DNA of 64,000 nt, from assembly GCA_029551285.1 (NCBI GenBank), contig JAKPFT010000044.1:1-64000 (forward strand), in the 5' to 3' direction. Shown here piece after piece: positions 1 through 63,214 of this stretch. The notes beneath the pieces are model-generated. The model was not told the origin of the DNA. It saw only the letters and a program-made list of their open reading frames with translations, and did no database searches. Source of the stretch: a bacterium (GTDB lineage: Bacteria; Ratteibacteria; UBA8468; B48-G9; DSTR01). The position numbers and the translations under genes were made by a program. How positions within the stretch are numbered: position 1 is the stretch's first letter; each line of letters begins with the position of its first letter.

Positions 1-123
1 TCTGAGCTCGCCTCTGGGCGAGCGAGTTCGCCGAGCAACCGATTTCGGCGTAGTCCTTGTCTGTGCCGGAGCAGCTTGAGTGAGCCAGTTCGTTCCCTTT
101 CTTTTCATTCCTCTTTCATTCAT
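1..123 (-). CDS. 5' end of a gene following exbD (partial, unrecognised)
   Basis: An open frame runs off the left edge of the window. It can start at the ATG at 123, which overlaps the exbD stop codon, or at the in-frame ATG at 108. A GAGG-like sequence lies just before the second ATG, though very close to it. About 36-41 codons are visible. They are basic and rich in Thr, Pro and Arg, with no membrane segment. Its place after exbB-exbD suggests a TonB-like or other energy-transduction partner, but the visible residues do not show the usual TonB N-terminal anchor, so the function is open. Real coding status is uncertain. Confidence 0.3.
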   Translation of the reverse strand, partial: MNERGMKRKGTNWLTQAAPAQTRTTPKSVARRTRSPRGELR

Positions 124-550
124 TTTTTGACACTACCTCTCTTTCTGCTGGTTCGGCCTGTGTGGCCAGGCCAACCAGGCTTACTTCTGCCCTTTTTACT
201 ATATCAAGCACTCTGGCCAGTTCGCCGTAGGAGATTTGCTCGTCACCCTTGACCACCACCATCAGGTCCGGGTCCCTGACTTTTCTTTCTTTGAGAGAAC
301 TAAACAATTGCTCTGCTGTGACCGGCACGCCTCCTAAGTAGTAAACGCCGCCAGGCGCCACCGTGAGTACAACCATCTTTTCCGCGCTGATGCGGGATGG
401 AGAAGTTGTGGGTAGTTTTACTTCCAGCCCCTGCTCAATAAACGGGGAAATCATCAGCAGGACTACCACCAGAGTGAGAGCGATATCCACCAGGTTGGTG
501 ATGTTAATCGGCGGGAAAGGCGGAGCCGTAATCATCTTCCTGACACTCAT
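116..550 (-). CDS. exbD: ExbD/TolR biopolymer transport protein
   Basis: A 144-residue inner-membrane protein of the ExbD/TolR family, which with ExbB/TolQ forms a proton-driven motor powering outer-membrane uptake or envelope integrity. One membrane segment spans roughly residues 18-38 and carries the conserved proton-path Asp (Asp22, in NLVDIALTL). It is followed by a periplasmic domain of normal length. It directly follows exbB with a 4-base ATGA-type overlap, so the two are translationally coupled. ExbD and TolR cannot be separated from sequence alone, and no Pal, TolB or TonB gene is visible to decide. Confidence 0.9.
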   Translation of the reverse strand: MSVRKMITAPPFPPINITNLVDIALTLVVVLLMISPFIEQGLEVKLPTTSPSRISAEKMVVLTVAPGGVYYLGGVPVTAEQLFSSLKERKVRDPDLMVVVKGDEQISYGELARVLDIVKRAEVSLVGLATQAEPAEREVVSKNE

Positions 551-1161
551 GGTTTTCCCTGTTTAGTGAGAATACTGGCCACTTCCGGAAGAATGGCGTC
601 CAGGTAACCGGCTAACTTTTTCAATGACTCGCTGAAATAACTGTAGCCAACAGCCGCGGGAATAGCGACCACCAGACCGATAACCGTGGTTACCAGGGCC
701 TCAGCCACTCCGGAGGCGACCACTTTGATGGAGGAAGAACCGGTCAGGTACATGTTGTGGAAGGCAATCAGCAGCCCCCAGACAGTACCTAAAAGGCCGA
801 GAAACGGTGCGACCGTGGCAATCGCGGCCAGAAAACTGATATTGCTGCCCAGGGTCTCCACTTCCCGCAGCGCGACCTTTTCCAGATGAGGAATTAGTTT
901 TTCTTCGGGCAGGTTTTCTTTCTTAAGGAAGTTTTCTCCGAAGGTGAAGACCTGCTGCAGCGGGGAAATTTCTTCCGGGAGCCACTGGCCGGTTAGCAGT
1001 GCCTGCTCAAAGTTTCTGTGCCTTCGCTGAATGCGCCGCAGCAGGATAAATTTCTCAATCATAATCCACCAGGAGACCACAGAAAGTAATGCCAGGACCA
1101 GAAGGTCAAGTTTTCCAGCCCAGTCGCAGTGACGCCACGACGCCAGCAGGATAGTACCCAT
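547..1161 (-). CDS. exbB: ExbB/TolQ-type motor protein (MotA/TolQ/ExbB family)
   Basis: About 204 residues with three membrane segments: one near residues 18-34 (ending in WWIMIEKF), then a pair around 105-135 and 145-175. This is the ExbB/TolQ pattern, with the family-typical GLLGTVWGLL stretch in the second segment. The protein forms the pentameric stator around ExbD. I chose the ATG at 1161 rather than an upstream TTG at 1212 because a strong promoter (TTGACG, 17-bp spacer, TATCCT) sits between them, with its -10 box 7 bases before this ATG. The TTG reading would place the promoter inside the gene. There is no ribosome-binding site before 1161, so the message is probably leaderless. It overlaps exbD by 4 bases. 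Confidence 0.9.
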   Translation of the reverse strand: MGTILLASWRHCDWAGKLDLLVLALLSVVSWWIMIEKFILLRRIQRRHRNFEQALLTGQWLPEEISPLQQVFTFGENFLKKENLPEEKLIPHLEKVALREVETLGSNISFLAAIATVAPFLGLLGTVWGLLIAFHNMYLTGSSSIKVVASGVAEALVTTVIGLVVAIPAAVGYSYFSESLKKLAGYLDAILPEVASILTKQGKP

Positions 1162-1168
1162 AAGATTA

Positions 1169-1197
1169 AGGATAACAGTTTCTCCTGCAGGCGTCAA
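1169..1197 (-). promoter_or_regulatory. Sigma-70-type promoter of exbB-exbD
   Basis: On the minus strand, TTGACG (1197-1192) is followed by a 17-base spacer and TATCCT (1174-1169). The predicted transcript start is about 1162, one base before the exbB ATG. The match to consensus is good in both boxes with optimal spacing. It lies inside the open frame of the alternative TTG start, which argues against that start. Confidence 0.65.
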
Positions 1198-10983: not shown

Positions 10984-10997
10984 GGACAATTTTGTCC
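10984..10997. promoter_or_regulatory. Inverted repeat, candidate activator or repressor site
   Basis: GGACAA-TT-TTGTCC, a perfect 6-bp inverted repeat with a 2-base centre. It lies about 130 bp upstream of the predicted sigma-54 start (a usual distance for NtrC-type enhancer sites) and 6 bp upstream of the -35 box of the divergent radical SAM promoter. A second palindrome, GGTTTGAAACC, lies at 10961-10971. Which protein binds is not shown by the sequence. Confidence 0.45.
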
Positions 10998-11003
10998 GCT
11001 GGT

Positions 11004-11032
11004 TTGACAAAGTCTATTGCTACTAATATCAT
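11004..11032 (+). promoter_or_regulatory. Sigma-70 promoter of the radical SAM/ketosynthase operon
   Basis: TTGACA (11004-11009), 17-base spacer, TATCAT (11027-11032). The predicted start falls at 11039-11040, on the ATG of the radical SAM gene itself, so the mRNA should be leaderless. Confidence 0.75.
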
Positions 11033-11038
11033 AAGAGT

Positions 11039-12670
11039 ATGGGTGCAAGATGTCTTTTGCTCTCTCTGGCCGGGACGCCAAAGATACTTTCAGACTTTGT
11101 GCCTGATAACGGACTGGCCAGTCTGGCTGCCTGTCTTCTTAAGGCGGGCCATGAAGTAATAATTCGCGATTACAACAATCCTGATTTGTTTGACCGTATC
11201 TACCCTGCCGCCTGCAAAAGGTTTCTGAATTCCTTCGCCGAGAAAGTCTTTCTCTACCAGCGGCGACCAGCCTTCAATGACCTGGTTCTGCTCAGAGCAG
11301 TGGAACAGGTTCTTGCCTTAAGGAAAAGGATGTTTCTTCAGGAAGTGAAAGAGGAGTTGCTCCAGCAGGTGGAGACAGCAGGGATTAACCTTGTGGGGAT
11401 AAAACTCTGGGCCGGCGAAGGTTTTCACTGGTCTGTAGAAATCGCCGGCTTTTTGAAAAAGAAAGTCCCCGGGTTGTGGGTTTTTGGTGGTGGGCCGCAG
11501 GTGGACATTTTTGGACATCACCTTTTCTCGGTCTGTCCATTTTTTGACGGCCTCTGTTACGGCGAAGGTGAGGAAACAATTGTCCAGCTGGCCAACGTGG
11601 CTCTAGGAAGAACAAACTTGTCCGAAGTGTTCAATATCTACTACCGGAAAGACGGGCAGGTCGTTAAAAATCCTGCCAGAGAAATTCAGGACCTCAACCA
11701 GCTTCCGATCCCTGTTTATGAAGAAGCGGTCTACCAGGAAATTCACAAGAAAATCAAGATGTTAGTAATTGATGAAAGTCGCGGGTGCCCCAACCGGTGT
11801 TTTTTTTGTATTCATCCGGTTAAAAGCGGACGCCGCCGCGAGAAAAGTCCGGACCGGGTGCTGAAAGAGATGGAGCAGGCCAGGCAGGCTTATGGGGTTT
11901 CCCTTTTCCGGTTTGCCGGTTCCAGCACTCCCCCGGTTCTGATGACTGAAGTAGCCCGGCGGCTGGTGGAGCGAGGTCTAAGAGTTCGCTATTCCAGTTT
12001 CGGTAGCCTCAGAGAATTCCAGGGTCAGGAAGATTTTTCCCTCTGGAAAGATTCAGGGTGTCAGTCCATTTTCTTCGGGGTGGAATCAGCCAGCGAGACT
12101 ATCCTGAGACTGGCGATGAATCGCCGGATAAAGAAAGAGACGATGGCCCATATTCTGAAGAAGTGCCAGAGCGCCGGTATTTTTACGGTGGTCAGTATCA
12201 TCCACCCGGCACCGATGGAAACCCGGGAAAGCCGAAGAGAAACCATGGAATTCCTGAAGGATGTGCGGCCAGATTCTGTTCTGGTTCAGTTTCCCGGCAT
12301 CTATCCTGGTACGCCCTGGTTTGAGCAGGCAGAACGTTTCGGTTTTTCCCTGGACAGAGAAAAGTATCCCCGGCAGGTGATGGGCTATCAAATAAAATCG
12401 CTTTTCCCCCCTCGTTACTGGCGGCCCTTACCCTACCTCATTAATGGAATGCCTTTTCGTGTTTTTGCCAGAGAAACCGAACTTTTCCAGGAAGAACTGA
12501 ACCGCTCCGGTATCCTGACAGGTGTTTCCGATGAAGCCTATCTCCTTTTTCAGGCAGCCAGCCCTGGCAGCCTGGAGGCTTTCATCCGGAATAATCGCTG
12601 CTGGTTCTATGCTGGAGATGCCAGGCGTCTGACCGAGGAGATTGACACAATTAACAGGGGCAGTGGATGA
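11039..12670 (+). CDS. B12-binding-type radical SAM protein next to a ketosynthase
   Basis: A 543-residue enzyme. The N-terminal 200 residues have the layout of a cobalamin-binding domain (opening strand CLLLSLAG, FVPDNGLASLAACL, VGIKLWAG, FGGGPQVD), though no DxHxxG motif is evident, so cobalamin binding may be lost. The radical SAM core starts near residue 245 with the cluster motif RGCPNRCFFC. SAM-site features SIFFGVESAS and a C-terminal domain follow. Substrate is unknown. No ribosome-binding site precedes the ATG. Its stop overlaps the ketosynthase start (ATGA), so the two act together in all likelihood. B12-type radical SAM enzymes methylate, cyclise or rearrange unactivated carbons. 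Confidence 0.88.
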   Translation: MGARCLLLSLAGTPKILSDFVPDNGLASLAACLLKAGHEVIIRDYNNPDLFDRIYPAACKRFLNSFAEKVFLYQRRPAFNDLVLLRAVEQVLALRKRMFLQEVKEELLQQVETAGINLVGIKLWAGEGFHWSVEIAGFLKKKVPGLWVFGGGPQVDIFGHHLFSVCPFFDGLCYGEGEETIVQLANVALGRTNLSEVFNIYYRKDGQVVKNPAREIQDLNQLPIPVYEEAVYQEIHKKIKMLVIDESRGCPNRCFFCIHPVKSGRRREKSPDRVLKEMEQARQAYGVSLFRFAGSSTPPVLMTEVARRLVERGLRVRYSSFGSLREFQGQEDFSLWKDSGCQSIFFGVESASETILRLAMNRRIKKETMAHILKKCQSAGIFTVVSIIHPAPMETRESRRETMEFLKDVRPDSVLVQFPGIYPGTPWFEQAERFGFSLDREKYPRQVMGYQIKSLFPPRYWRPLPYLINGMPFRVFARETELFQEELNRSGILTGVSDEAYLLFQAASPGSLEAFIRNNRCWFYAGDARRLTEEIDTINRGSG

Positions 12671-28590: not shown

Positions 28591-28599
28591 TGTTAAACT
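28591..28599 (+). promoter_or_regulatory. Extended -10 just before the nucleotidyltransferase gene
   Basis: TGT followed by TAAACT (28594-28599), five bases before the ATG at 28605. No usable -35 box and no ribosome-binding site are seen. If used, the transcript would begin at or next to the start codon. Confidence 0.35.
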
Positions 28600-28604
28600 A
28601 AGAT

Positions 28605-29600
28605 ATGACCAGAAAAAGCCTGACGGCTATCATTCCTGCAGCTGGTCTTGGGACCAGACTGAGGCCTCTTACCTATAGCCGGCCGAAAGCACTCTTGCCC
28701 CTGGCCGGCAAACCCATGATTGGCTATGTGCTGGAAGCCGTCAGAGAACTTGGGGCCAGTAGAGTAGTGTTGATCGTAGGACATCTGGCCGGCCAGGTGG
28801 CTCAATATGTGAAAGAAAATTTTACTTCCGGGGTGGTGCTGGTGGAACAGAAACAATTCCTGGGACTGGGGCACGCAATTTTTCAGGCGGCCGGATCCGT
28901 GGAGGATGAGGCCCTAATTTTTCTGGGAGATACGCTGGTTGAGGGAGATTTTACCAGGCATATCGGGGCCGGTTACAGCTGGCTGGCTGTGAAAGAAGTT
29001 GAAGACCCCAGACCTTTTGGCGTGGTGGTGACTGACCGGGCTGGCTGGATCCGCAACCTGGTGGAAAAGCCGGCCACACCTGTTTCGCGGAAAGCGATTG
29101 TTGGTGTTTATTATCTGAGAAACAGCCGGTTGCTTTTCCAGTGTCTTTCCGATTTGGTCACTGGAGATATCCGGACCAGAGGTGAATACCAGTTGACTGA
29201 TGCCATCCAGATGATGGTACAGCGGGGAGAGAAGATTAGAACCGTACCTGTAGAGAAATGGTATGACTGTGGCCGGGTAGAGACACTTCTTCAGACCAAC
29301 CAATTTTTTCTCCAGAAATACTGTCGGAAGACACCGCAAATTTCTGGAGCCGTTATTACTCCGCCTGTTTACTTTGGCCCTGAAGTCAAAATTACCGGGG
29401 GCCGTCTGGGTCCCCATGTCGCGCTCAGCCGCGGGGTTGTGGCCACAAACTGCGTTTTAAGAAATGTTATTGTGGATGAGGGAGCCCACTTAGAGGATGT
29501 CTGGTTAGAGGACTCAGTAGTGGGCCAGCGGACCAGGGTGACTGGCTTCCGGGGCCGCCTCAATATCGGGGATGACGCCGAGGTATCAGCCTATCGGTGA
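28605..29600 (+). CDS. Sugar-1-phosphate nucleotidyltransferase (RmlA/GlmU-like, with left-handed helix domain)
   Basis: A 331-residue enzyme that activates sugar phosphates to NDP-sugars. N-terminal catalytic domain with IIPAAGLGTRLRPLTYSRPKALLPLAGKPM (signature GxGTRLxPLT and Lys), FLGDTLVEGDF, EKP and YQLTDAIQ. A C-terminal hexapeptide-repeat stretch (about 255-331) resembles the beta-helix tail of GlmU or archaeal glucose-1-phosphate thymidylyltransferases. Nucleotide and sugar are not determined. It ends 4 bases before the convergent lysC stop. No SD sequence precedes the start. Confidence 0.88.
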   Translation: MTRKSLTAIIPAAGLGTRLRPLTYSRPKALLPLAGKPMIGYVLEAVRELGASRVVLIVGHLAGQVAQYVKENFTSGVVLVEQKQFLGLGHAIFQAAGSVEDEALIFLGDTLVEGDFTRHIGAGYSWLAVKEVEDPRPFGVVVTDRAGWIRNLVEKPATPVSRKAIVGVYYLRNSRLLFQCLSDLVTGDIRTRGEYQLTDAIQMMVQRGEKIRTVPVEKWYDCGRVETLLQTNQFFLQKYCRKTPQISGAVITPPVYFGPEVKITGGRLGPHVALSRGVVATNCVLRNVIVDEGAHLEDVWLEDSVVGQRTRVTGFRGRLNIGDDAEVSAYR

Positions 29601-29604
29601 GGCT

Positions 29605-30816
29605 TTAATTCTTCTCAATAAATTCCCGGTGGGCGGCCTCAAGACTCTTCTGGGCATCTGCCCGACGCACCACGCAGGAAATTTTGATTTCAGAGGTACT
29701 GATCATCTCTATGTTCACGCCGGCCCTGGCCAGCGCCTGAAACATTCGGCCGGCCACACCTGGATGGTTCATCATACCGATGCCAATAATGGAGACCTTG
29801 GCAATGTCATCATCAGCGCTAACCCGTTCTGCGCCCAGGCAGCCGGCCACTTCCCGGGTAAGGGAAAGTGCTTTTTCCAGGTCAGTCAGGTTAACGGTAA
29901 AGGAAATGTCGGCGTGATTGTCCCGTCCCACATTCTGGACAATCATATCCACATTGATATTTTCTGAACCAAGAGCCTGGAAAAGTTTGGCCGCAATTCC
30001 CGGTCGGTCCGGAACGCGAAACACGGAGATTTTGGCCTGATTTTCATCCACGGAGACAGAAGAGACAACAGCCCCTTCCTGAACCTCAATCTCTTTGACC
30101 ATGGTACCCTCTCCCTCCTCAAAAGTGGATTTCACGCTGAAGACTACCTGGTATTTCTTGGCAAACTCCACCGCCCGTGACTGCATCACCTTGGCTCCGG
30201 TGGAAGCCATTTCTAACATTTCCTCGTAAGCCAGACAGCGGATTAATCTGGCGCCGGGGATACGATGGGGATCCGCGGTGAACACACCAGGAACATCGGT
30301 GTAAATTTCGCAGAGGTCTGCCTTCAAACTGGCGGCCAGGGCTATCGCCGTAAGGTCTGAGCCTCCCCGTCCCAGGGTGGTGATGATGTTTTCCGGCCCC
30401 AATCCCTGAAAACCGGCTACCACGACAATTTTTCCCGCTTCCAGTTCTTTGCGGATTCGGGCCGGGTCAATCTTCATAATCCTGGCTTTGGTGTGAACGC
30501 TGTCTGTTTTAATCCCGGCGAAATAACCCGGGAAACCCTCTGCTTCCTCTCCCAGTTCCTCAATGGCCATGGACATGAGCGCCACCGAAACCATTTCTCC
30601 GGTAGCCAGAAGCAGGTCCAGCTCGCGTCCTGGCGGCTGGTGGTGGACCTGGCGGGCCAGGGCAATGAGATTATCGGTGGTTTTTCCCATGGCCGAGACA
30701 ACAACCACCACCTGGTGGTTCTGTCTTTTAACGGCAACAACCCGGGCGGCCACCTTTTTTATTTTCTCAGCCGTGGCCAGAGAACTGCCGCCAAACTTCT
30801 GGACGATGAGTGCCAT
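29605..30816 (-). CDS. lysC: Aspartate kinase
   Basis: A 403-residue enzyme catalysing the first step to lysine, threonine and methionine. Kinase domain: VQKFGGSSLA at the N-terminus, GFQGL, TLGRGGSDLTAIALA near residue 150, and TDVPGVFTADPR-like residues. Two C-terminal ACT domains (about 260-403, VPDRPGIAAKLFQAL and MNHPGVAGRMFQAL) provide feedback control. The start is the ATG at 30816, matching the family N-terminus; upstream codons in frame would overlap the promoter. There is no ribosome-binding site; the -10 box is 6 bases upstream. Confidence 0.96.
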   Translation of the reverse strand: MALIVQKFGGSSLATAEKIKKVAARVVAVKRQNHQVVVVVSAMGKTTDNLIALARQVHHQPPGRELDLLLATGEMVSVALMSMAIEELGEEAEGFPGYFAGIKTDSVHTKARIMKIDPARIRKELEAGKIVVVAGFQGLGPENIITTLGRGGSDLTAIALAASLKADLCEIYTDVPGVFTADPHRIPGARLIRCLAYEEMLEMASTGAKVMQSRAVEFAKKYQVVFSVKSTFEEGEGTMVKEIEVQEGAVVSSVSVDENQAKISVFRVPDRPGIAAKLFQALGSENINVDMIVQNVGRDNHADISFTVNLTDLEKALSLTREVAGCLGAERVSADDDIAKVSIIGIGMMNHPGVAGRMFQALARAGVNIEMISTSEIKISCVVRRADAQKSLEAAHREFIEKN

Positions 30817-30822
30817 AGAATT

Positions 30823-30852
30823 ATGATAACAGGAAAAAGGTATTTTTGACAA
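30823..30852 (-). promoter_or_regulatory. Promoter of lysC
   Basis: On the minus strand TTGTCA (30852-30847), 18-base spacer, TATCAT (30828-30823). The predicted start coincides with the A of the lysC ATG, so this is a leaderless mRNA. Confidence 0.65.
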
Positions 30853-34834: not shown

Positions 34835-34840
34835 ACATGT

Positions 34841-35006
34841 GGCTGTTCCGTGCGTGGGGAGCAAGAACCCTTGAGCCAACACCCATGCAAAGGGAGCCAA
34901 GGCTGGCAGGGCCGGAGTTCGCTACGGCAAACACCGAAACTGTCCAGGGCGGCACCCACCTGAAACTTCAGGTCTCAAAGGGTGATATCCCGGCGGCGGA
35001 ACGGCC
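34841..35006 (+). ncRNA. ssrS: 6S RNA
   Basis: A 166-base RNA that mimics an open promoter and sequesters the housekeeping RNA polymerase holoenzyme. The terminal stem GGCTGTTCCG (34841-34850) pairs with CGGAACGGCC (34997-35006), with one G-U. The 5' part holds GAGCAAGAACCCTTGAGCC and the 3' part CACCTGAAACTTCAGG, then a CAAAGGGTGATAT stretch and GCGGCGGAAC. These match the arrangement of known 6S RNAs around a large central bubble. It has its own promoter and is followed within 23 bases by tRNA-Tyr. Confidence 0.85.
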
Positions 35007-35028
35007 ATTTCATCATCAAATTTACTGA

Positions 35029-56616: not shown

Positions 56617-57423
56617 TTAAGCCAGTGGCTGGTAAACTTCCGGGGCGACAAAAATGACCTTGCGGGGACATTCGGGAACGCACCGGCCACAATTGGTGCA
56701 GCGTTCCGGGTCAATGACCGCCAGGTTATTCTCAAGGGTGATTGCCTTTTCGGGGCAGATTCTGACACAGCGGCCACAGCCGATACAGCCTATCTTGCAC
56801 ACCTTCATGACCGTGGCGCCGCGGTCGTGCGAAGAACAGGCCACATAAACTTTTTTTTCCAGCAGCGTCAGTTTTATAATCTCTTTAGGACAGACCTCAA
56901 CACACCGGCCGCAGCCCACACATTTTTTTTCGTCCACTTCCGGCAAAAGCCGGCCCATGCGGATGGCGCCAAAAGGGCAGGAGCGAACACAGCTGCCAAG
57001 GCCCAGGCACCCTGAGGGACAGGCCAGATGAGTATCAAAGAGGGCGTGGAGAGCGCGGCAATCCTGAAGGTTGGTAGTAAACCTTCTGACAGCGCTGACG
57101 CCACCGGAACAGAAGACCCTGGCGACAACAGCTTTTACTTCTGTTTCCGAAAGGCCCAGAAGTTGACACAACTGCTTTCTGTTTTCCTGGCTCAGAGCCA
57201 CACATCTGGCCGGTATTGCCTTCCCTTCAGCCAGTTTCTGGGCGAAACCAGCACAGCCGGCTTCCCCGCAGGCACCACAGTTGGCCCCGGGCAGAAGAGA
57301 AAGCAGGCTGGCTACCAGAGGATTTTCCTCAACGTGAAATTTCAGGAAGAAGTATGTGAGGAAAAGCCCAAAAAAAAGCCCCAGCCCTCCAAGCACCAGT
57401 CCCGCAGTTGCCTGGTTGCTCAT
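56617..57423 (-). CDS. rnfB: RnfB-type electron transport protein (Fe-S)
   Basis: A 268-residue membrane-anchored ferredoxin-like protein. N-terminal helix (about 7-28), then the 4Fe-4S domain of RnfB with NCGACGEAGCAGFAQKLAEG (48-67) and a further Cys. About four CxxCxxCxxxCP ferredoxin motifs follow, among them CLGLGSCVRSCP, CVGCGRCVEVCP, CIGCGRCVRICP and CTNCGRCVPECP. In Rnf complexes this subunit takes electrons from ferredoxin. No rnfACDEG genes are adjacent, so it may be a stand-alone protein. First gene of the long minus-strand run, with a leaderless-type promoter. Confidence 0.9.
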   Translation of the reverse strand: MSNQATAGLVLGGLGLFFGLFLTYFFLKFHVEENPLVASLLSLLPGANCGACGEAGCAGFAQKLAEGKAIPARCVALSQENRKQLCQLLGLSETEVKAVVARVFCSGGVSAVRRFTTNLQDCRALHALFDTHLACPSGCLGLGSCVRSCPFGAIRMGRLLPEVDEKKCVGCGRCVEVCPKEIIKLTLLEKKVYVACSSHDRGATVMKVCKIGCIGCGRCVRICPEKAITLENNLAVIDPERCTNCGRCVPECPRKVIFVAPEVYQPLA

Positions 57424-57431
57424 AGGGCTGG

Positions 57432-57462
57432 ATTATACAACAAACAAAAAAAGGGGTAAAAT
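57432..57462. promoter_or_regulatory. Interleaved divergent promoters of rnfB and the second UroD-like gene
   Basis: Minus strand: TTTACC (57460-57455), 17-base spacer, TATAAT (57437-57432), 8 bases before the rnfB ATG. Plus strand: TAAAAT (57457-57462), 6 bases before the UroD-like ATG, with TTATAC 18 bases upstream as a poor -35. The boxes of one promoter lie on the boxes of the other, so only one can be occupied at a time. Confidence 0.5.
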
Positions 57463-57468
57463 TAGCGC

Positions 57469-58455
57469 ATGGAAAAGAAATTTGAAAAGCAGAGCCCGGC
57501 CCGGACGCCGAGAGAGCGGTTTATCCTGGCCCTGGAAAGACGACCGCTCACTGGACTGGTGCCCCACTTTGAACTTGTTTTTTATCTGACCATGGAGGCT
57601 TTTCGTAAGGTTCATCCCGGCCATCGGAACTACGCTCAATGGGACCAGATGAGTGAGGAGGAACGTTCTCTCCATCGGCTTGACCAGGTTGAAATTTATG
57701 TCCGGACCGCGGAAGAGTTCGGTCACAGTGCCATTTTTCTTCATCCCAATCCGGGTACCCTTGAAGAAACAGTTCGTTTGATAGACCTTATCCGGGAAAA
57801 AACAGGGGATAAATTTTTTCTGATGATTCACGGTGACGCCACCATGGGAATTCCTGGCGGTCAGCAGATGATGGAGTTTTGCCAGAGGCTTTCTGACGAA
57901 CCGGAAAAGGTGAAAGAGGAGGCTACCATCAGGGTGGAGCAGGCTCTGCAGCGGGCCGAGGAATTGAAAAGGAGGACAAGCCTGGACGGTTTCGCTCTCT
58001 GCGCTGACTATTGTCTGAATTCTGGTCCTTTCCTGAGTCCGGCCATGTTCAGTGAGTTCGTGACGCCTTACCTGGCAAGGTTGGTCAGCGGTTATCGCCA
58101 GTTAGGCTTTTATACCATAAAGCATACTGACGGCAACATCATGCCCATTCTAAATCAGTTAGTGGAAGCCAACCCCCATGCTCTTCACTCTCTTGATCCT
58201 CAGGCCGGGGTAGATATCGCCGAAGTCAAACGGTTGGTCGGCCATCGCGTCTGTCTGATTGGCAATGTCAACTGCGGCCTTCTCCAGACAGGCAGTGAAC
58301 AGGACGTAATTGCTTCAGTCAGGTACGCGCTCAGGGCCGGTATGCCAGGATATGGCTACATCTTTTCCACTTCCAACTGTATCTATACCGGTTTGCCTCT
58401 GGCTCGGTACCGACTGATGCTCAAAGTCTGGAAAGAGGAGGGCTGGTATGTCTGA
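57469..58455 (+). CDS. UroD-like decarboxylase/methyltransferase-fold protein
   Basis: A 328-residue protein of the uroporphyrinogen-decarboxylase superfamily, distinct from the copy at 33008. Features: TPRERFILALERRPLTGLVP start, DGFALCADYCLNSGPFLSP near residue 173, KHTDGNIMPILNQLVEANPHALHSLDPQAG near residue 217 and GNVNCGLLQTGS near 264. Family members without heme genes nearby are often corrinoid methyltransferase-like; substrate unknown. No clear ribosome site at normal distance; AAGGGG lies 12 bases away inside the promoter. It overlaps the nuclease gene by 8 bases. Confidence 0.83.
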   Translation: MEKKFEKQSPARTPRERFILALERRPLTGLVPHFELVFYLTMEAFRKVHPGHRNYAQWDQMSEEERSLHRLDQVEIYVRTAEEFGHSAIFLHPNPGTLEETVRLIDLIREKTGDKFFLMIHGDATMGIPGGQQMMEFCQRLSDEPEKVKEEATIRVEQALQRAEELKRRTSLDGFALCADYCLNSGPFLSPAMFSEFVTPYLARLVSGYRQLGFYTIKHTDGNIMPILNQLVEANPHALHSLDPQAGVDIAEVKRLVGHRVCLIGNVNCGLLQTGSEQDVIASVRYALRAGMPGYGYIFSTSNCIYTGLPLARYRLMLKVWKEEGWYV

Positions 58456-61773: not shown

Positions 61774-62877
61774 TCAGGTCAGCCGGCGGGCCAGCCATGA
61801 TTTCTCCAGCTGGATAGCCTTATGGGGACATACCTCAAAACAACACAGGCACCGAATACACTTCGCCTCTAAAATTTTCGGCTCCCTGGATATAGCGGAA
61901 ACCGGGCAGACGCGGACACAGGCCAGACAGTGCCGGCAGTTTTTTTCTCTGAGAACAGGTCTGATAGTGAAAAATGGTCTCATCAGCCGGGCCGCGCTGG
62001 AGACGAAGGGTAACTTCAGCAGACTGCTGGAGGCAGAAAGGCCCGGCAGGGCAACGTCGGATAAAGGAAGAAGCCGGTCCCCCAGCAGGTCCACTTTCGG
62101 CAAGCCGTAGATTTCATCGTAAAGTTTCAGAAAGGGTATCTCAGCCGCTTTCAATCCCAGCAATTTTCCGCAGACTATATCAACGGCGAGAGCATCGCGT
62201 CCGGCGATCAAGTAGCCAGGACCGCGGAGTCTCCCGGCAGAGGGTCCGTTTCCGTCCATGATGGTAATTGCGTCCACCAGGTGAAAAAAGATGTTGTCTC
62301 GCAACATCCGGTACAGTTCAATGAGAAGATATGAAAAATCCTGCGGGGAAAGGAAGAGGCGGTGCAGCAAACTCTTCTGGTAGCCAGGGATGCACCCGTA
62401 AAGGTTTTTCGTCGCAGCAGTGATTACTGTCAGTCCGTGGGTCTTCAGTTTGGGCAGGTTGACCATGGGTATCTTCCGGGAAATGGCCGCTACCGGGATT
62501 TTCACATTTTTTTTCCTGACCTTCAGAGAAAGAAAAACGGGTTCCTCAAACTTAACCAGGCTGGCTTTGAGAGAAGCAGCCACAGCGGTCAAACCGCAGG
62601 TATCCCAGTATTCTTCAATGGGTCTGGCGGTGTTCGCTGGACTGTCTCCGATGAGGATGCGGCCAGCGAGGGCCTCTCCTAAGACCTTCAGGACGCCGGG
62701 GTGGGTGGTAACCCCTTCTTCTGGCCGGCGGGCTGAGAGCATATTGGGTTTGAAGAGCAGAGTGTCCGGCCTGGAAATGCGGTCTAACCGGAGCATTTCC
62801 AGCAGCCGGGTTACCGCCTCCCTCAGATGGTTTTCCTGGTAGTCAGGACAGCGGACAATACCTACTGTTTCTCTCAT
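61774..62877 (-). CDS. DUF362 protein with two C-terminal 4Fe-4S clusters
   Basis: About 367 residues. The DUF362 domain begins VGIVRCPDYQENHLREAV and contains LLFKPNMLSARRPEEGVTTHP, GDSPANTARP and NLPKLKTHGLTVITAATKNLYGCIPG. The C-terminal ferredoxin part has CRHCLACVRVCP and CIRCLCCFEVCP. Function in the family is unknown; some members sit with redox enzymes. I use the ATG at 62877, where family similarity begins and AGGG lies 8 bases upstream. An in-frame ATG at 62976 would add 33 residues and lies 7 bases after a -10 box, so a longer leaderless form is possible. Confidence 0.85.
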   Translation of the reverse strand: MRETVGIVRCPDYQENHLREAVTRLLEMLRLDRISRPDTLLFKPNMLSARRPEEGVTTHPGVLKVLGEALAGRILIGDSPANTARPIEEYWDTCGLTAVAASLKASLVKFEEPVFLSLKVRKKNVKIPVAAISRKIPMVNLPKLKTHGLTVITAATKNLYGCIPGYQKSLLHRLFLSPQDFSYLLIELYRMLRDNIFFHLVDAITIMDGNGPSAGRLRGPGYLIAGRDALAVDIVCGKLLGLKAAEIPFLKLYDEIYGLPKVDLLGDRLLPLSDVALPGLSASSSLLKLPFVSSAARLMRPFFTIRPVLREKNCRHCLACVRVCPVSAISREPKILEAKCIRCLCCFEVCPHKAIQLEKSWLARRLT

Positions 62878-62983
62878 CAAATTACCCTGGGCAGGTTGTT
62901 TGGCCAGATGTGGCGGCTGGTTCCAAAAGTCGGTTTCTTGCTGCCGCGTGAAAGGCCCCGGTCCTTGAAAATCCATCCCTGAG

Positions 62984-62992
62984 AGTATAGCA
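62984..62992 (-). promoter_or_regulatory. Extended -10 upstream of the DUF362 gene
   Basis: TGC-TATACT on the minus strand (TATACT at 62989-62984). The predicted start is at 62977, next to an in-frame ATG at 62976. No clear -35. Confidence 0.4.
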
Positions 62993-63095: not shown

Positions 63096-63124
63096 TTGAC
63101 TTGGGGGTTAATCTTGATTATCAT
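63096..63124 (+). promoter_or_regulatory. groESL: Promoter of groES-groEL
   Basis: TTGACT (63096-63101), 17-base spacer, TATCAT (63119-63124), start predicted near 63131. No CIRCE element (the inverted TTAGCACTC repeat of HrcA) is present between it and the gene. Confidence 0.65.
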
Positions 63125-63132
63125 AAGGGGAT

Positions 63133-63214
63133 GGGTTTGACCAGGTGAAGAGACCTTTGAAACCTTCCGGGTGGAGAAGGCATCAAAAGATGAGTGAAGC
63201 AGGCAGTCAAACCC
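63133..63214 (+). promoter_or_regulatory. Structured leader of groES with four-way-junction fold
   Basis: GGGTTTGAC (63133-63141) pairs perfectly with GTCAAACCC (63206-63214). Inside, three hairpins follow one another: AGGT/ACCT (63143-63156), CCTTC/GAAGG (63163-63180) and CATC/GATG with an AAAA loop (63181-63192). The closing stem begins two bases after the predicted transcription start. This could be a heat- or ligand-sensing leader. No known family was recognised. Confidence 0.45.

Follow-up and report, generated by a model that had tools for sequence, protein, structure and literature searches.

Seven genes named by an earlier sequence-only reading of the stretch of DNA analysed here (64,000 nucleotides, the window) are very probably leaderless, with σ70-type promoters placed at the start codon and transcript starts predicted from the DNA. 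The housekeeping RNA polymerase would bind a σ70-type promoter in which 5-8 nt separate the -10 hexamer from the start codon, and transcription would begin at the A of the ATG or no more than 1-3 nt away. The resulting mRNA would carry no Shine-Dalgarno (SD) sequence, and ribosomes would bind its 5'-terminal AUG directly by the 70S route, in the way that 70S ribosomes initiate at the 5'-terminal AUG of leaderless mRNAs in other bacteria (PMC9031893). Most other genes of the genome would have ordinary leadered mRNAs, which are often SD-led.

As contig 57, the window belongs to a genome of 2.72 Mb in 99 contigs, with about 52% G+C in the sample described below. Judged by RecG, whose nearest named relatives (57-61% identical) come from metagenome bins that bear the labels Vermiphilus, Candidatus Omnitrophota or "bacterium", the host is an uncultured lineage near Omnitrophota; the 16S match ends at model position 1387, near a contig end. 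The comparison set is the order, with 28 genomes in three families (f1-f3).

Re-reading the sequence recovered the claimed promoters at exbB (TTGACG-17-TATCCT-7-ATG, 1197..1159, minus strand), the radical SAM gene (TTGACA-17-TATCAT-6-ATG, 11004..11041), lysC (TTGTCA-18-TATCAT-6-ATG, 30852..30814, minus strand) and rnfB (TTTACC-17-TATAAT-8-ATG, 57460..57421, minus strand), as well as the weaker promoter described at 57469 (TATACA-17-TAAAAT-6-ATG). Support for these elements as promoters comes from proper -35/-10 pairs at a spacing of 16-18 nt, with weak -35 boxes at rnfB and 57469. For the genes at 28605 and 62976 the near spacing stands (TGT-TAAACT-5-ATG, and TGC-TATACT-7-ATG on the minus strand), but their boxes are extended -10 elements (TGn) and not -35/-10 pairs, good -35 boxes being absent at both. 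At all seven sites a TANNNT hexamer precedes the start codon by about 10-12 bp, leaving the gap of 5-8 nt, and none carries an SD 4-mer (GGAG, GAGG or AGGA) at the usual place, as had been claimed for the first four. The features are collected in Table 1.

Table 1. Promoter elements and genes at the seven sites, with the basis for each entry.
Feature	Position	Strand	Basis
exbB -35 box TTGACG	1192..1197	-	sequence; TTGAC retained in 10 orthologs
exbB -10 box TATCCT, 17-nt spacer, ends 7 nt before ATG	1169..1174	-	sequence; 10 orthologs have TAnnnT at 6-8 nt
exbB/tolQ-like gene (MotA_ExbB), start ATG 1161	547..1161	-	Pfam PF01618 E=5e-30; ortholog starts align here
Radical SAM promoter TTGACA-17-TATCAT, 6 nt before ATG	11004..11032	+	sequence; conserved in families f1, f2
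B12-binding/radical SAM gene, predicted leaderless	11039..12670	+	Pfam PF04055, PF02310
Extended -10 box TGTTAAACT, 5 nt before ATG 28605	28591..28599	+	sequence; ortholog boxes in L321 and family f3
Nucleotidyl transferase gene, predicted leaderless	28605..29600	+	Pfam PF00483
lysC promoter TTGTCA-18-TATCAT, 6 nt before ATG	30823..30852	-	sequence; most relatives SD-led, -10 further upstream
lysC (aspartate kinase), start ATG 30816 (MALIVQKFGGSS)	29605..30816	-	Pfam AA_kinase and ACT domains; N-terminus aligned, 24 orthologs
rnfB promoter TTTACC-17-TATAAT, 8 nt before ATG	57432..57460	-	sequence; TATAAT-6-ATG in same-genus L291
rnfB-like ferredoxin gene	56617..57423	-	Pfam Fer4 and FeS domains
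uroD-like promoter TATACA-17-TAAAAT, 6 nt before ATG	57434..57462	+	sequence; TATAAT-7-ATG in same-genus L351
URO-D domain gene (uroD-like)	57469..58455	+	Pfam PF01208
Extended -10 box TGCTATACT, 7 nt before ATG 62976	62984..62992	-	sequence
DUF362/ferredoxin gene, probable start ATG 62976	61774..62976	-	Pfam PF04015; -10 box position

Comparison with relatives is the strongest evidence for the predicted leaderless arrangement. Conservation is clear at exbB, the radical SAM gene and the nucleotidyl transferase gene, is confined to the genus at rnfB and the uroD-like gene, and covers the own genome and two genomes of family f3 at lysC. The exbB arrangement, TTGAC(A/T/G)-16/17-TAnnnT-6..8-ATG, is found in 10 of 21 orthologs, from families f1 and f2 (shuffled mean 1.2, max 5), and these share the arrangement while their spacer sequences are unrelated. 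In family f3, most genomes have a tRNA gene upstream of exbB in place of the near promoter. For the radical SAM gene, a near promoter is present in 11 of 20 orthologs (shuffled mean 1.5, max 6). The nucleotidyl transferase gene at 28605 has a weak box of its own; its ortholog in the same genus (L321) has TGGTAAACT 7 nt before the ATG. By strict scoring 7 of 12 orthologs of this gene have a near box (shuffled mean 0.8, max 3), always at a distance of 6 nt, and seven orthologs of family f3 carry TATAAT or TATTAT exactly 6 nt before the ATG.

Among relatives, lysC and rnfB appear to switch between leaderless and SD-led expression. Outside its own genome and the two f3 genomes, lysC has an SD in 18 of 21 orthologs, and rnfB is SD-led in relatives outside the genus, several of which have TATAAT further upstream. 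In the SD-led relatives of both genes, TATAAT often lies about 20 nt from the ATG. Promoter position and SD thus vary in concert, the pattern to expect where one mode takes the place of the other.

Within the genus, near boxes occur at both rnfB and the uroD-like gene in both genomes. The ATGs of this divergent pair are 45 bp apart, a gap of identical length in the same-genus genome, and the two promoters between them (57424-57468) are interlocked, with each -10 overlapping the other's -35. Tentatively, and as one joint proposal, selection may keep particular genes, exbB above all, leaderless across families of this uncultured Omnitrophota-related order, and the 45-bp gap may act as a compact two-way switch in which interlocked leaderless promoters admit one polymerase at a time.

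The promoters could be real and yet start transcription a few bases upstream, giving a leader of 2-5 nt, or the main product could come from a later in-frame codon; we regard this as unlikely, though a serious alternative. The range of 5-8 nt between box and ATG across genes and orthologs speaks for a short leader, but a leader of a few bases without SD would be functionally leaderless, so that this reading overlaps with the preferred one. Ortholog N-termini, which align at these ATGs, speak against this alternative. At exbB, where the sequence-only reading had used the promoter to settle the start codon, the alignment agrees with ATG 1161: an ATG stands at this position in 20 of 21 orthologs and a GTG in one, while the upstream TTG 1212 is not conserved. 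The lysC ortholog starts likewise align at ATG 30816. The DUF362/ferredoxin gene, judged from its upstream box, probably starts at ATG 62976 rather than GTG 63012.

The region upstream of exbB (1192-1227) also holds a facing promoter on the plus strand, TTGACC-17-TACAAT, directed towards a prepilin-peptidase-like gene. Its -35 stands back to back with the minus-strand -35 of exbB within GGTCAAATTGAC, and this sequence is retained in L219.

Enrichment over chance was assessed in genes called in 1.07 Mb (39% of the genome), with ATG starts split into 279 unit-heading and 317 operon-internal genes. A promoter counted as near if it scored 9/12 or more and its -10 ended 5-8 nt ahead of the ATG, and dinucleotide shuffles served as the null. 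The sample came partly from contigs with known pattern matches, and its blind part comprises 162 genes. Near promoters precede 11 of the 279 unit-heading genes against 0.48 +/- 0.64 (max 3) in shuffled sequences, and 0 of the 317 operon-internal genes, which confines the class at this score to unit-heading genes. When extended -10 boxes are added, 18 unit-heading genes and one operon-internal gene fall at 5-8 nt, and the other bins hold 1 (1-4 nt), 7 (9-12), 3 (13-16) and 4 (17-20). The distances thus peak at 5-8 nt, fall to a trough at about 13-20 nt and rise to a broad hump beyond 20 nt. In two relatives sampled regardless of matches, the counts were 6 against 1.1 shuffled (G006) and 9 against 0.7 (G003); a peak at 6 nt is common to both and to the own genome, although G006 has still more promoters (11) at 9-12 nt than at 5-8 nt. 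In the E. coli K-12 control there were no near promoters (0/105), few of its promoters reaching the threshold at any distance.

By start codon, near promoters numbered 16 at ATG against 5 at the shifted distance, with no excess for GTG and TTG starts (3 and 4 against 4 and 4). An excess at ATG but not at GTG or TTG fits initiation at a 5'-terminal AUG.

The proposal of the sequence-only reading that two initiation modes coexist is supported: promoter distances are bimodal, and the SD, common where the promoter is far, is absent where it is near. Of the 65 genes with distant promoters 42 carry an SD 4-mer, and of the 11 with near promoters none does, the absence being partly geometric because a -10 box 6 nt before the ATG occupies the SD position. 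Within the window, an SD 4-mer precedes 5 of the 14 genes that head a unit. One pattern match there, at 63096-63133, was excluded as a leaderless protein gene because the frame that follows its ATG, within the groES leader, is only 5 codons long. This leader (63096-63148) has a promoter TTGACT..TATCAT with the 5-codon ORF (ATGGGTTTGACCAGGTGA) at the predicted transcript start, and groES itself probably begins at ATG 63251, which has a GGAGGTG site. The window further contains a 6S RNA (67.8 bits) at 34837-35011, directly before tRNA-Tyr and tRNA-Gly genes.

The claim that predicted leaderless genes recur holds within the window, and such genes are enriched in the sample, but genome-wide they are rarer than the window implies. 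Strong leaderless-type promoters precede 5 of 14 unit-heading genes in the window against 6 of 265 elsewhere (Fisher p=6e-5), a density that is probably, at least in part, a selection effect, to which the earlier reader's choice of the window may contribute. The blind part by itself gives a weak signal: its 162 genes have 2 near promoters, and once extended -10 boxes are included the number is 6, compared with 2 at 13-16 nt and 2 at 17-20 nt. Over the whole genome, TTGACN-N15-18-TATNNT-N3-8-ATG matches 17 sites, compared with 7 when the last gap is set to 13-18, and 2 of these 7 are leaderless-type promoters already among the 17. Because these blind-part and whole-genome counts are low, leaderless expression is a minor mode, in the range of 1-5% of first genes or below, with the window as an outlier.

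It is very unlikely that these boxes arose by chance in start regions rich in A/T, with leadered mRNAs made from upstream promoters and SD-less initiation through an unstructured region or ribosomal protein S1. Many first genes do have neither an SD nor a near promoter, an A/T bias before start codons is general (PMC5397173), and exact TATAAT before ATG shows hardly any enrichment across the genome: TATAAT-N4-8-ATG occurs 6243 times over the whole order against 5674 for the shifted control (about 1.1-fold), and 50 times against 32 in the own genome. A 2-3-fold excess of this pattern over its reversed form in the whole order was dropped as evidence because the distance-shifted control leaves only 1.1-fold. 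Against chance matches stand the confinement of the peak to 5-8 nt, its absence from operon-internal genes and shuffles, the paired -35 boxes, and the conservation of hexamers and spacing at the exbB, radical SAM and nucleotidyl transferase orthologs. In addition, gaps between divergent ATGs of down to 45 bp leave little room for another promoter.

That the conserved sequence near the ATG of the radical SAM gene is mainly a repressor operator, and not a promoter placed for leaderless expression, is highly improbable: a perfect palindrome, GGACAATTTTGTCC, which occurs once in the own genome, lies before the promoter at 10984-10997, the -35 is overlapped by a related sequence (10984-11020), similar palindromes are kept in some orthologs and TGTACAAAATTGAACA directly abuts the ATG in family f3, but this reading is limited to this one gene, f2 orthologs carry TATAAT 7-8 nt before the ATG without that palindrome, and an operator can coexist with a leaderless promoter. 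The palindrome itself is likely to be a repressor operator.

Leaderless signals of this kind are already known in bacteria, and what is new here is the Omnitrophota-related lineage. A literature search on leaderless expression in Omnitrophota or candidate phyla found no earlier report, only one paper on ribosome biogenesis. Zheng et al. 2011 described TA-led leaderless genes in 206 bacterial genomes, with a share above 20% of genes in Actinobacteria and Deinococcus-Thermus (PMC3160421). The genes described here resemble them in the TANNNT about 12 bp before the start codon, in the missing SD, in forming a unit-first minority beside SD-led genes and in the exchange of TA-led and SD-led starts between orthologs; they differ from those of the two phyla in their share, about 1-5% of first genes, and belong to a lineage that the paper, as far as consulted, does not name.

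In Deinococcus, mutation has shown that ORF-adjacent boxes are sigma -10 regions, and annotated starts were corrected (Zhong et al. 2025, PMC12340547). The Deinococcus-Thermus motif is similar in lying about 6-7 bp before the ORF and in coexisting with GGAG sites, but there it serves nearly one third of genes, expressed from a -10 motif without a -35 box (PMC12340547), whereas here the share is small and a good -35 or a TGn extension accompanies most of the strong cases. Leaderless and SD-led genes also stand side by side within one genome in mycobacteria, where leaderless transcripts were measured by RNA-seq and ribosome profiling (PMC3898074, PMC4633059) while here they are predicted from DNA.

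The findings add an uncultured lineage to the range of this known mode of expression. They also correct the start codons of exbB (1161), lysC (30816) and probably the gene at 62976, which gene finders based on SD sites or the longest ORF would miss. Within this lineage, the leaderless mode appears to be gained and lost gene by gene, as at lysC and rnfB, and kept at others, such as exbB.
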